A stretch of 64,000 nt of DNA from the NCBI RefSeq assembly GCF_000092905.1, contig NC_014098.1:1550001-1614000 (forward strand), in the 5' to 3' direction. The position numbers and the translations under genes were made by a program. This stretch comes from Kyrpidia tusciae DSM 2912 (lineage in GTDB: Bacteria; Bacillota; Bacilli; Kyrpidiales; Kyrpidiaceae). A model generated the notes under the pieces. It made no database searches and was not told the origin of the DNA. It saw only the letters and a list, made by a program, of their open reading frames with translations. This document shows positions 24,817 to 28,483 of this stretch, in pieces (positions within the stretch are counted from its first letter, which is position 1; the number at the start of each line of letters is the position of its first letter).

Positions 24817-26064
24817 TTGATCGACCGGCAGCAGCTCTCCAACGGATTGACGGTGGTCGTGGAAGAGATTCCCGGCATCCGTTCTATTTCTGTGGGGATT
24901 TGGGTCGGGACGGGGTCCCGACATGAAACCCCCGAGATCAACGGGATCTCACACCTTATCGAACATATGTTGTTTAAGGGGACGGAGACAAGATCCGCCA
25001 AGGAATTGGCGGAAGTGTTCGATCACGTGGGGGGACAGGTGAACGCTTTTACCGCTAAAGAGTACACCTGTTTTTACGCCAAGGTCCTGGACCTTCATTT
25101 CAGGCGGGCCATGGAGACTTTGGCAGATATGTTTTTCCACTCCCGATTTGCCCCCGAGGAATTGGCGAAAGAACGCAAGGTGATCGTCGAAGAAATCCGC
25201 ATGTACGAGGATACGCCGGACGAACTGGTTCACGATCTCCTGGCCTCGGTAGTATGGGGCGATCACCCGCTGGGGTTCAACATACTGGGAACCGAACAGA
25301 CATTGCAAACCTTCGAGCGACAAAACCTGGTGGATTATCTGTCCCAGCGATACGTCGAGACCAACACGGTCATCACCGTGGCCGGTCACGTGCGGACCGA
25401 CGAGGTGATGGCTATTGTTGAGGAGCTGTTCGGGGGCCCGTGGAATCGCCGGGCCGAACGAGTAATCACCGAGCCGCCGACTTTTACGCCCGAGCGGGGC
25501 ACCCGGGTGAAACAGACCGAACAGGAACACTTCTGTTTGGCCGTACCCGGTCTGCCGGTGGACCACGAGGATTTGCACGCTATGATCTTATTGAACAACA
25601 CCCTGGGCGGGACGATGAGCTCCCGGTTGTTTCAGTCGATTCGCGAGGAAAAGGGCATGGCTTATTCGATTTATTCCTACCACACGGCGTACCGGGATAC
25701 GGGGCTCTTGGGAATTTATGCCGGAATGGCGCCCGAATATACCGGGGAGGTCGTTCGGGAAGTACGCCGGATTTTTGAAGACGTCGCCGAATCCGGGATC
25801 ACGGAGGGAGAACTGGAGCGCGGTAAGGAACAAGTAAAAGGAAGCCTCATGCTCAGCCTGGAGAGTACCACCAGTCGGATGACCCGATTGGGCAAGAATG
25901 AACTGCTTCTCGGACGGCACTACACCCTGGACGAGACCCTGGAGCGAATCGATGCAGTGACGTTGGAGGATGTCCGACGGGTGGCGCAATGCTTGCGAAA
26001 TGTTCCGGCCGTGGCGGCGGTGGGCCCGGTGCCCGGAGAGGAATTGGAAAGGTTGTTCGATTGA
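24817..26064 (+). CDS. mlpA: M16 family zinc protease MlpA (YmxG)
   Basis: A processing-peptidase-like zinc protease of 415 residues. The inverted zinc motif HLIEH (H-x2-E-H) lies at about residues 47-51, with the distal glutamate in IVEEIRMYEDTP. The C-terminal M16 half has the NNTLGGTMSSRLFQSIREEKGMAYS motif. TTG 24817 is chosen because GAGGAGG at 24804-24810 is 6 bases upstream and the protein then begins like B. subtilis MlpA; ATG 24811 abuts the Shine-Dalgarno, and the longer frame back to 24748 has no support. It lies between ylxY and dut. Confidence 0.92.
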   Translation: MIDRQQLSNGLTVVVEEIPGIRSISVGIWVGTGSRHETPEINGISHLIEHMLFKGTETRSAKELAEVFDHVGGQVNAFTAKEYTCFYAKVLDLHFRRAMETLADMFFHSRFAPEELAKERKVIVEEIRMYEDTPDELVHDLLASVVWGDHPLGFNILGTEQTLQTFERQNLVDYLSQRYVETNTVITVAGHVRTDEVMAIVEELFGGPWNRRAERVITEPPTFTPERGTRVKQTEQEHFCLAVPGLPVDHEDLHAMILLNNTLGGTMSSRLFQSIREEKGMAYSIYSYHTAYRDTGLLGIYAGMAPEYTGEVVREVRRIFEDVAESGITEGELERGKEQVKGSLMLSLESTTSRMTRLGKNELLLGRHYTLDETLERIDAVTLEDVRRVAQCLRNVPAVAAVGPVPGEELERLFD

Positions 26065-26107
26065 GGTGTCTGTTGAGGTGTCTAGGGAAAGAAGCGAGGT
26101 GCGGACG

Positions 26108-26581
26108 GTGCAACTCAAGGTGAAGCGGCTGGAGAAGTCGGGGGTGCCTCCGATGCCCGTGGCGTACCAGACCGAGGGCTCTGCGGGCCTCGATCTGGCT
26201 GCGGCCATCTCTGAACCCCTAGAAATCAACCCCGGGGAGGTGATTCTCATTCCCACCGGCATCGCCGTGGAACTGCCGGGGCCGGAGTTTGTCGGCCTGG
26301 TGTTTGCCCGCAGCGGTCTCTCGACCCGGGAGCAGTTGGGACTGGCCAATGGGGTTGGCGTTATTGACAGTGACTATCGGGGTGAGATCCACGCGCCTTT
26401 GTATAACTTTGGAAAACAGCCGCGTCGGATCGAACCGGGCCAGCGCGTGGCCCAATTGGTGGTCATGCCGATCTGTCGGGTGGAAGTGGCCTACGTGACT
26501 CAACTCGGGGAGTCCCGGCGGGGAGAAGGCGGGTTCGGGTCGACGGGGCGCCTGATTGAGCCGGAGGGGAATGTTCGGTGA
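26108..26581 (+). CDS. dut: dUTP diphosphatase
   Basis: A trimeric dUTPase that hydrolyses dUTP to dUMP and pyrophosphate. It has 157 residues with all five motifs: GSAGLDLAA (I), ARSGLS (II), NGVGVIDSDYRGEI (III), RIEPGQRVAQLVV (IV) and the glycine-rich RRGEGGFGSTG (V). GTG 26108 has GAGGTG six bases upstream; a longer frame beginning inside mlpA is not real. The stop overlaps the GTG of the next gene, so the two nucleotide-metabolism genes are coupled. Confidence 0.96.
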   Translation: MQLKVKRLEKSGVPPMPVAYQTEGSAGLDLAAAISEPLEINPGEVILIPTGIAVELPGPEFVGLVFARSGLSTREQLGLANGVGVIDSDYRGEIHAPLYNFGKQPRRIEPGQRVAQLVVMPICRVEVAYVTQLGESRRGEGGFGSTGRLIEPEGNVR

Positions 26582-27255
26582 CGACGCTCCTCATCGATAT
26601 GGATTCGGTGATTGTCGATTTGATGTCCGCTTGGTGTCGCCGGTATAACGCCGACTGGGCCGATAACCTGACCCCGGACGACATTTTGACCTGGGAATGG
26701 GAAAAATACGTAAAACCCGAGTGCGGGCGTAAAATTTATCAATATCTCAACGAACCCGGGATGTTTTTGCATCTCGATCCCCTGCCCCACGCCGTTGACG
26801 TATTGGAACGCCTGTCAAAACGGTATGAGGTGCTCATCGTGACCAGCGCCCGGCGCAGTGCCATGGCAGAAAAGGACGCGTGGGTGACCCAACATCTTCC
26901 GTTTATTGGGCGGAAAAATCTGATTTTTGCCCACCGGAAAGACCGAGTATGTGGAGACCTGCTGTTCGACGATGCCCCACACAACCTTGAGGCATTCCTG
27001 CGGTCGGGCAGGAGGGCGGTGGCAATGGATTACGCGTATAATCGCCACGTCCCCTGTCTCCGGGTCAAGGGCTGGTTGGAATTCGAGGAGCTGGTGTACC
27101 GGTTGTTTCCCGAATCGGGAGGTGAAGGAGGAGGCGAGAGTGTCGGAGCGACAGAAGGTGGACCTTGCCGTGGTGGGTGCCGGTCCAGCCGGCATCAGCG
27201 CGGGGATTTGGGCGAGGCGAGTGGGGCTTACGGCCGTCGTGATCGAGGCCGCTGA
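26578..27255 (+). CDS. HAD-type 5'(3')-deoxyribonucleotidase, with overlapping C-terminal tail
   Basis: A 225-residue protein whose first 180 residues match the 5'(3')-deoxyribonucleotidase (NT5C-like) HAD family: LLIDMDSVIVDLM (the catalytic D-x-D), VLIVTSARR (motif II), HRKDRVCGDLLFDDAP (motif III lysine region and DD). It would dephosphorylate deoxynucleoside monophosphates, which fits the neighbour dut. The GTG overlaps the dut stop. The last 38 residues or so, rich in G and R, are read through the start of the next gene in another frame (116-base overlap) and are probably not a conserved domain. Confidence 0.82.
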   Translation: MTTLLIDMDSVIVDLMSAWCRRYNADWADNLTPDDILTWEWEKYVKPECGRKIYQYLNEPGMFLHLDPLPHAVDVLERLSKRYEVLIVTSARRSAMAEKDAWVTQHLPFIGRKNLIFAHRKDRVCGDLLFDDAPHNLEAFLRSGRRAVAMDYAYNRHVPCLRVKGWLEFEELVYRLFPESGGEGGGESVGATEGGPCRGGCRSSRHQRGDLGEASGAYGRRDRGR

Positions 27256-28078
27256 ACCCGGGGGACAATTGCGAGGAGTGCGCGGCCCCATTCCAGATTA
27301 CCCGGGATGGGGCGAGGTCCAGGGTCCGGAACTGGCCCGCGCCCTGGTGGATCACCTCGTGCGCTCGGGGACACCTCTGGTCGATTCGGCGGGACCCGTT
27401 CGAGTGGATACCGCCGGGCGTCGGGTTCACACGGCGGCCGGCGTGTGGGAAGCTGAGGCCATCGTATTGGCCACTGGCGCCCGGCCTCGGCGTCTGGGGA
27501 TTCCCGGGGAAGCGGAAATGGAAAGGCGGGGGGAAGTGTGGTCCGCTTCCCGGGATGCCGGCAGGTTTCGCCATCTGCCGGTGGTGGTCATCGGAGGAGG
27601 TGACCGGGCGTTGGAAGGGGCGTGGCTCTTGGCCGAGGCGGGGGCACAGGTGACCATCGTGCATCGGAGGACGTCCTTTCGGGCCCGCCGGCAATGGTGG
27701 GAGCGCGTGTTTCGGCATCCCGGCATCACCGTTATGGCCCCGGCCTGGGCGGTGGCCATCCAAGGGAGCGACCAGACCCAAAGCGTCAGGATTCGGCTCG
27801 GAGGCGCGGGAGAGATCGAGGTCCCTGCTGCGGGAGTTTTTGTTCGGATCGGCACTGAGCCGAATCTCGAGGGGATCCACGATCTTCCTCGCCTGGATTC
27901 TTACGGCGTAGTGGCGGTGGATCGGTGGGGGAGGACTTCCCTTCCCGGCATCTATGCGGCGGGGGATGTGTGTACCCCGGCTCCTTATACGGGTGTTGCT
28001 TCGGCGGTGGCCGACGGCATGCGGGCGGTGAAGGCGGCGGTTCAGGACATGGAGGGAGCCAATCCATTCAAAGGTTGA
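27140..28078 (+). CDS. Thioredoxin-reductase-like FAD/NAD(P) oxidoreductase lacking the CxxC site
   Basis: A 312-residue two-dinucleotide-domain flavoprotein with the fold order of TrxB. It has the N-terminal FAD motif VVGAGPAGISAGIWA, PGGQLRG, the ATGARPR motif, the NAD(P) motif VVIGGGDRALEGA, and the C-terminal GIYAAGDV. The position of the redox pair (normally CATCDG) reads SASRDA here, so both cysteines are missing and it cannot be a classical thioredoxin reductase. It may be a ferredoxin/flavodoxin-type or other NAD(P)H oxidoreductase. GTG 27140 follows GGAGGAGG. It overlaps the nucleotidase gene and is followed by a terminator. Confidence 0.83.
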   Translation: MSERQKVDLAVVGAGPAGISAGIWARRVGLTAVVIEAAEPGGQLRGVRGPIPDYPGWGEVQGPELARALVDHLVRSGTPLVDSAGPVRVDTAGRRVHTAAGVWEAEAIVLATGARPRRLGIPGEAEMERRGEVWSASRDAGRFRHLPVVVIGGGDRALEGAWLLAEAGAQVTIVHRRTSFRARRQWWERVFRHPGITVMAPAWAVAIQGSDQTQSVRIRLGGAGEIEVPAAGVFVRIGTEPNLEGIHDLPRLDSYGVVAVDRWGRTSLPGIYAAGDVCTPAPYTGVASAVADGMRAVKAAVQDMEGANPFKG

Positions 28079-28120
28079 CGGAGCGCGTTTTTAGGTACCG
28101 GGGCGCTCCGTTCTGTTTTT
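28078..28120 (+). terminator. Intrinsic terminator after the TrxB-like gene
   Basis: ACGGAGCGC (28078-28086) pairs perfectly with GCGCTCCGT (28103-28111); TCTGTTTTT follows. It starts at the last base of the stop codon. Confidence 0.8.
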
Positions 28121-28159
28121 GCGCGACCCTGCATATGGGCTAGGCAGGAGGGGATGAGG

Positions 28160-28483
28160 GTGCGCTGGAGTGAGGTTGTGGGGCGGAAAATTATTGACAC
28201 GGCAGATGGACGGTGTCTCGGCGACCTTGCGGATGTCGATCTCATATTGGATGACGACGGGCGGATCCTCGCTTTGCGCATCCGGGTCCAGGGTCGGTGG
28301 GGACGGAAGCGTAGTTATGTGGACATTCCGTGGCAGGCTGTACAACACATCGGGGCGGACGTGTGCCTTCTGGATCGTCGGAGGATTCGGTCGGGGGAAC
28401 ATCGGGACTTCGGCCCACCCCTCAACAATTCGACAATGGACGAAAACCACGGCGGTTTCACGGGTGCCCAGCGGGATGCATAG
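28160..28483 (+). CDS. ymxH: PRC-barrel protein, YlmC/YmxH family
   Basis: A 107-residue PRC-barrel domain protein. YmxH/YlmC proteins are sporulation-associated with no defined activity. The sequence shows RWSEVVGRKIIDTADGRCLGDLADVDLILDDDGRI and YVDIPWQAVQHIGADVCLL. GTG 28160 is preferred to ATG 28154 because AGGAGGGG ends too close to the ATG; the protein then begins MRWSEVVGRKII like relatives. The C-terminal 25 residues are hydrophilic and less conserved. It occupies the same place as in B. subtilis, just before dipicolinate synthase. Confidence 0.82.
   Translation: MRWSEVVGRKIIDTADGRCLGDLADVDLILDDDGRILALRIRVQGRWGRKRSYVDIPWQAVQHIGADVCLLDRRRIRSGEHRDFGPPLNNSTMDENHGGFTGAQRDA

Follow-up and report, generated by a model that had tools for sequence, protein, structure and literature searches.

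Kyrpidia tusciae is a heat-loving spore former whose genome is a single contig of 3,384,766 bases; the nearest genome, G001, has 3,352,175 bases. The window analysed here, a stretch of 64,000 nucleotides from that contig, carries a gene for a two-domain pyridine-nucleotide flavoprotein (Pfam Pyr_redox_2, 2.4e-42) for which thioredoxin reductase (TrxB) is the closest relative. As the first-pass annotation had stated, the gene lies between a nucleotidase gene and ymxH, and dut stands further upstream (Table 1). The open frame of the nucleotidase extends 116 bases into the flavoprotein gene (27140-27255). Over this overlap the nucleotidase tail is identical between G000 (the window genome) and G001 at 31/38 residues, against 184/187 over the remainder; the shared stretch therefore appears to be governed by the flavoprotein frame. 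Elsewhere, in several families, the spacing of the two genes points to frames that overlap by a few bases.

Table 1. Genes and sequence features around the flavoprotein gene, in window coordinates
Feature	Position	Strand	Remarks
dUTPase (dut) open frame	25970..26581	+	stop overlaps nucleotidase start by 4 bases
NT5C-family 5'-nucleotidase (PF06941), DMDSV motif	26578..27255	+	conserved partner; homologous part ends near 27114
Flavoprotein gene (Q)	27140..28078	+	312 aa, Pyr_redox_2, GTG start
FAD dinucleotide-binding motif GAGPAG, residues 13-18	27176..27193	+	sequence motif
SASRDA, residues 135-140	27542..27559	+	by alignment with TrxB CATCDG / CAVCDG (CAxCDG)
NAD(P)H motif GGGDRALEG, residues 152-160 (GGGDRA, 152-157)	27593..27619	+	Arg156 in 24/24 core members, 0/26 TrxBs compared
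HRRTSFRAR, residues 175-183	27662..27688	+	at the place of TrxB HRRDxxRA, by alignment
AAGDVC, residues 273-278 (AAGD, 273-276)	27956..27973	+	GD motif and C278
Possible intrinsic terminator, 10-pair stem then T-rich tail	28077..28121	+	after the flavoprotein gene
ymxH (YlmC/YmxH sporulation family, TIGR02888)	28154..28483	+	neighbour here and in G001

The FAD and NAD(P)H dinucleotide-binding motifs of TrxB are all present in the flavoprotein (GAGPAG, GGGDRA, HRR..FRA and AAGD; we take the GD motif in AAGDVC to be FAD-binding), which bears out the earlier claim that both such motifs are intact. In TrxB, electrons pass from NADPH to FAD, from FAD to a CxxC, and thence to thioredoxin. Here the CxxC motif is replaced by SASRDA, and C278 is the sole cysteine of the protein; a two-cysteine active site inside one chain is therefore impossible, and the original observation that disulphide chemistry is excluded at this position holds. 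A sequencing error or a decaying gene is ruled out: SASRDA is found again in G001, another complete Kyrpidia genome, whose flavoprotein is 96% identical, and the gene is under purifying selection: a simple counting method applied to four pairs gave dN/dS values of 0.138, 0.186, 0.191 and 0.264 (dS exceeds 1 in the pairs at 0.186 and 0.191). In-match stops seen in G137 and G733 in a genome profile search are, by their coordinates, the genes' own stops. Since the change recurs across a family of such proteins in related bacteria, often encoded beside one particular nucleotidase, the flavoprotein is probably a working enzyme whose job is other than that of TrxB. A single-sequence AlphaFold2 model of it was poor (mean pLDDT 46).

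Distribution and conserved residues of the subfamily

A first search of 61 genomes turned up several relatives whose CxxC site is replaced in a similar way. With a subfamily profile built from 13 members, 28 of 398 genomes sampled from the class were found to contain a member, at 290-495 bits; the next match is a TrxB at 261.5 bits, and scores fall from there. Twenty-four of these genomes score 358-495 bits and four (G015, G191, G288 and G085) 290-322 bits; 13 of the 28 supplied the profile rows and are high by construction, and the 15 others score 290-463. A sample of 398 genomes drawn from the phylum gave no score above 290 bits apart from that of the window genome itself; G733 reached 279. 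The gene is present in 12 of 14 genomes in the order of G016 and G149, in 4 of 15 in the order of G036, and in both genomes (2/2) of the order of G026.

Alignment of 29 members (one from the window, 27 from the further genomes that exceed 290 bits, and one from G733) places no cysteine at position 135 or 138 in any of them (0/29), the residues that define the redox-active CxxC of TrxB. Ser occupies position 135 in 27 members and Arg in the other 2; at position 138 there are 21 Arg, 5 Lys and one each of Glu, Val and His (Arg or Lys in 26/29); Asp139 is found in 24/29. In the 24 core members W24, D53, S135, R156 and R236 are invariant, E132 is present in 23 and a cysteine stands at 278 in 19. 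The residues W24, D53, R156 and R236 are absent from the 26 TrxBs compared, which at positions 24, 53, 135, 156, 236 and 132 usually carry Y, N, C, S, Y and V. The SxxRD pattern is broken in the most divergent members (G015, STSEQ; G191, STSKS; G288, RSSVH; G733, RPSHD). Because cysteine is lacking at 135 and 138 throughout the alignment and dN/dS lies at 0.14-0.26, the lost-cysteine site is not due to chance. These proteins constitute a real, conserved and uncharacterised enzyme subfamily, in the whole of which the disulphide has been swapped for a conserved Ser-x-x-Arg/Lys, and its members are easily mistaken for thioredoxin reductases. The HRRDxxRA motif of TrxB serves the 2'-phosphate of NADPH, according to the available text of PMC5627308; position 177 is Ser rather than Arg in many members (HRS..FRAR), so it is uncertain whether NADPH is preferred to NADH.

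A phage or mobile origin was considered and rejected. Viral contigs gave 45 pattern matches, none of them confirmed, and no relative of the flavoprotein; among plasmids, all 669 records are below 60% identity to it, the 20 matches listed being 33-38% identical, 11 of them annotated trxB. A scan of named genomes gave a single match, from Mangrovicoccus, 25% identical and without the motif.

Neighbouring genes

The conserved neighbour of the flavoprotein gene is the nucleotidase, not ymxH. A nucleotidase profile of 11 rows, applied to the same 398 class genomes with an E threshold of 1e-50, identified this nucleotidase subfamily in 18 genomes (11 of which built the profile): in 17 it stands directly upstream of the flavoprotein gene on the same strand, and the eighteenth is G116. 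Over the 398 genomes the association has a Fisher p of 1.2e-21, uncorrected for relatedness. The pair occurs in six families (f1, f14, f20, f24, f27 and f36) amid varying outer neighbours: dut and dpaA in f1, a MidA-type methyltransferase and a Nudix gene in f14 and f36 (which are alike), and others in f20, f24 and f27. The nearest solved relative of the nucleotidase is 3BWV, a putative 5'(3')-deoxyribonucleotidase; other NT5C proteins, from seven loci in six genomes, are merely 28-34% identical to that of the window. As the most faithful genomic partner found, the nucleotidase offers a lead toward a new substrate for the thioredoxin reductase (TrxR) fold.

A YtkD-like Nudix hydrolase is the next gene downstream of the flavoprotein in 13 of the 28 genomes, in G004 after a gap of 225 bases; the four copies tested score 110-134 bits with TIGR02705, under its cut-off of 154.4. 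The YtkD of B. subtilis is described as part of a defence system against oxidised guanine (available text of PMC10968225). A MidA-type methyltransferase gene lies upstream of the nucleotidase in 10/28 (Methyltransf_28 in the two copies shown, G053 and G116). Neither the nucleotidase nor the Nudix hydrolase is an obligatory partner, since 11 of the 28 flavoprotein genomes are without a nucleotidase of the subfamily and 15 without an adjacent Nudix gene. The converse case is G116: its locus L132 keeps the usual order of methyltransferase, nucleotidase, Nudix and racemase-like gene, the nucleotidase and Nudix frames overlap, and the flavoprotein is absent both from between them and from the rest of the genome. 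This is a natural loss of the flavoprotein gene, available for comparison with its neighbours, and because the methyltransferase, nucleotidase and Nudix genes are kept, the flavoprotein is dispensable to the nucleotidase and the Nudix hydrolase.

Several further arrangements were observed. Within one genus, a nucleotidase gene precedes the flavoprotein in G026 (L043) and is missing in G044 (L042), where some of the upstream sequence is alike by eye. In two families the Nudix-flavoprotein genes are faced, in convergent orientation, by genes for a 2-oxoacid:ferredoxin oxidoreductase (L044, 3098-5696, of G053, with Pfam assignment for this copy, and L119, 2029-4622, of G094). The Nudix gene is followed at L110 (by Pfam) and at L112, L116 and L132 (by eye) by a gene whose product combines an alanine-racemase N-terminal domain with a D-serine dehydratase domain. 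At L045 of G037, a genome without the subfamily nucleotidase, the flavoprotein gene follows rimM- and trmD-like genes (by eye).

Conservation beside ymxH, which the first-pass annotation had proposed to look for, was not borne out. In G002 and G003, of the same family as the window genome, ymxH is not at the flavoprotein gene and the next window gene found is dpaA; the stretches fetched from other families gave no BLAST match to the ymxH, dpaA or dpaB of the window (the search used window genes over about 6 kb per side, contig permitting). A function tied to ymxH or the spore block was accordingly rejected, the linkage being lost in G002 and G003 and not seen outside f1. The possible terminator that follows the flavoprotein gene shows no folding advantage over shuffled sequence (z -0.98), and the region is without a clear excess of terminator-like sites.

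Position among the thioredoxin reductase-like families

All 29 members fall into one clade of a FastTree tree (support 0.844, moderate), beside yet apart from TrxB; the tree is midpoint-rooted, with selected outgroups and only two rows of the ferredoxin reductase (FNR) type, L004 and L005. These two proteins are encoded in the window genome itself, match FNRs best among solved structures (327 and 391 bits), and lie far from the clade. Compared with bacterial and archaeal low-Mr TrxB, the flavoprotein is similar over its whole length of about 312 aa, with the FAD and NAD(P)H motifs and the HRRxxxRA region, and differs in its missing CxxC, its separate clade, its D53/E132/R156/R236 signature and its score with TIGR01292 (TRX_reduct), where it reaches 217.4 bits against a cut-off of 343.45. 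The member from G085 scores 180.3 bits with the same model, whereas L002, the normal TrxB that the window genome also encodes (CAVCDG), passes at 377.7. By definition, then, the flavoprotein is not a TrxB: the CxxC is absent and the cut-off is missed.

Among solved structures, the best matches of the subfamily profile are 3F8D and 3F8P, which we take to be Sulfolobus TrxB-3, and 36 chains labelled TrxR or AhpF (174-243 bits) outrank every FNR-type chain. The FNR-type group, at 102-173 bits, includes 2ZBW, which carries a TrxR label and is FNR-type by the structure matches of L004 and L005; among chains labelled TrxR, some from plants, yeast and elsewhere, at 98-172 bits, do no better than the FNRs. 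Descent from FNR, as judged from the tree and this ranking, is not supported, and the clustering proposed with the original annotation thus went against its suggestion of a ferredoxin or flavodoxin reductase; its other suggestion, a TrxB-like, non-disulphide and unrecognised oxidoreductase, agrees with the scores, the alignment, the tree and the absence of both cysteines. Like the flavoprotein, TrxR-like FNRs of the FNR1/FNR2 type possess FAD and NAD(P)H domains and no CxxC (available text of PMC10294844); they belong to a different clade, and at the old CxxC the loop of the flavoprotein exceeds that of L004 and L005 by one residue in the alignment. The same source describes for these FNRs a C-terminal extension with an FAD-stacking residue (His, Val, Tyr or Phe); FNR-labelled chains extend 21-47 residues past the profile-aligned part and the window protein less, while some TrxR-labelled chains also extend 22-51.

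Three further groups bear comparison. The YpdA/Bdr bacillithiol disulphide reductases are TrxR-like flavoproteins that also lack CxxC; judged by the YpdA model TIGR04018, where it scores 67.6 bits and the cut-off is 339.9, the flavoprotein is not one of them. The CxxC-less ferric reductases FeS of Thermus scotoductus and Trx of Thermoanaerobacter indiensis, likened here by description, are TrxR-like and disulphide-less, and their flavin is thought to feed a small oxidant; the available text on them (PMC4142287) reports the absence of CxxC as advantageous in Fe(III) reduction and, unlike what is seen here, mentions no gene cluster of the nucleotidase type. The NAD(P)H-independent thioredoxin reductases of the DvTRi type, a branch of the TrxB lineage that is without half of the electron path, are the mirror image: as described in the available text of PMC5627308, TRi can still reduce thioredoxin and carries a different motif where TrxB has HRRD, whereas the flavoprotein keeps HRR and has lost the CxxC. 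A search of the literature that covered few subscription papers found no paper on the subfamily or on a nucleotidase-flavoprotein-Nudix cluster. TrxR-like proteins without CxxC are already known; what is new, as far as searched, is a TrxB-derived SxxR/K branch with a dedicated nucleotidase.

Possible reactions of the flavoprotein

With somewhat less than even confidence, we favour the reading that the flavoprotein is an NAD(P)H:FAD reductase of the TrxB lineage whose flavin passes electrons directly to a small, perhaps anionic, acceptor, in the vicinity of nucleotide metabolism. The NAD(P)H-to-FAD half of the TrxB cycle looks intact and the FAD-to-disulphide half is impossible: NAD(P)H would reduce FAD, and the reduced flavin would hand its electrons to an acceptor in the room vacated by the CxxC. 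Positions 135-139 and 152-159 of the TrxB structure presumably face flavin or nicotinamide; Ser135, Arg/Lys138, the retained Asp139 and the subfamily-specific Arg156 and Arg236 may form a positive pocket there which, with a proton donor nearby, would suit a small anionic acceptor. What the sequences show is the lineage, the absence of both cysteines, the conservation, the pairing with the nucleotidase gene and the purifying selection; the use of FAD and NAD(P)H, the direct transfer from flavin, the arginines at the pocket, the anionic acceptor and the nucleotide context of the function belong to the tentative reading. The enzyme would act alongside its dedicated 5'-nucleotidase and, in many relatives, the YtkD-like Nudix hydrolase, in a setting of nucleotide housekeeping to which, in Kyrpidia, the dUTPase adjoins. 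As genes acting on nucleotides are its most constant neighbours, a nucleotide-derived acceptor is an economical guess, against which stand the 11/28 genomes without the nucleotidase and G116 without the flavoprotein. A more specific proposal, which we consider improbable, is that flavoprotein, nucleotidase and Nudix hydrolase form one route of nucleotide repair or salvage, in which the flavoenzyme would directly reduce a nucleotide-derived compound (such as a fragment of a cofactor, or a nucleotide that has been oxidised or N-hydroxylated), its phosphate being held by the arginines gained with the loss of the disulphide; if true, a thioredoxin reductase would have turned into a reductase of the nucleotide pool.

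The strongest of the alternatives, unlikely though still deserving of weight, is a general NAD(P)H diaphorase (an NAD(P)H oxidase, or a ferric, quinone or free-flavin reductase of the T. scotoductus FeS kind) with an unspecific acceptor, its link to the nucleotidase being historical: a flavin without a competing disulphide might be expected to react with small oxidants, and TrxR-like proteins without CxxC have been tied to Fe(III) reduction (available text of PMC4142287). A specific job is nonetheless suggested both by the dedicated nucleotidase partner and by the strong subfamily-specific conservation, which includes the lost-CxxC site (W24, D53, E132, S135, R138, R156 and R236).

Decidedly less probable is the ferredoxin or flavodoxin reductase of the earlier annotation, with which the missing CxxC and the 2-oxoacid:ferredoxin oxidoreductase genes convergent next door in G053 and G094 would agree; the clade lies far from FNR-type proteins in the tree, no FNR-type chain approaches the best TrxBs (up to 243 bits), and the genome already has two FNR-type proteins. 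A role without catalysis, in which the flavoprotein would bind NAD(P)H and FAD as a partner or redox sensor of the nucleotidase, would fit the loss of the catalytic cysteines and the adjacency of the two genes in 17/28 genomes, often with overlapping frames, and is very unlikely, given that both nucleotide-binding motifs and, in 24/29 members, Asp139 are kept, and that the flavoprotein occurs without the nucleotidase in 11/28 genomes and the reverse is seen once (G116). About as unlikely is an enzyme that still acts on thiols, through C278 or a YpdA/Bdr-like mechanism: C278 is conserved in 19/24 core members and a TrxR-like FNR homologue acts as a bacillithiol disulphide reductase (available text of PMC10294844), but 5/24 are without Cys at 278, C278 sits after the GD motif rather than at the old disulphide site, and the YpdA model score is far under its cut-off.

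A paralogue in the window genome, L003 (G000:C1:348610-349494, minus strand), fuses a glutaredoxin domain to a TrxR-like protein and is the mirror image of the flavoprotein, with CxxC kept (CSTCDA) and the NADPH motifs lost (GDSEEA, LIPGSSLKG). Matches of the L003 type of at least 300 bits are present in 14 of the 61 genomes. A complementary pair of flavoprotein and L003 was considered and not adopted: L003 is commoner in genomes with the flavoprotein (6/14) than in those without (8/47), yet the pairing is not obligatory.
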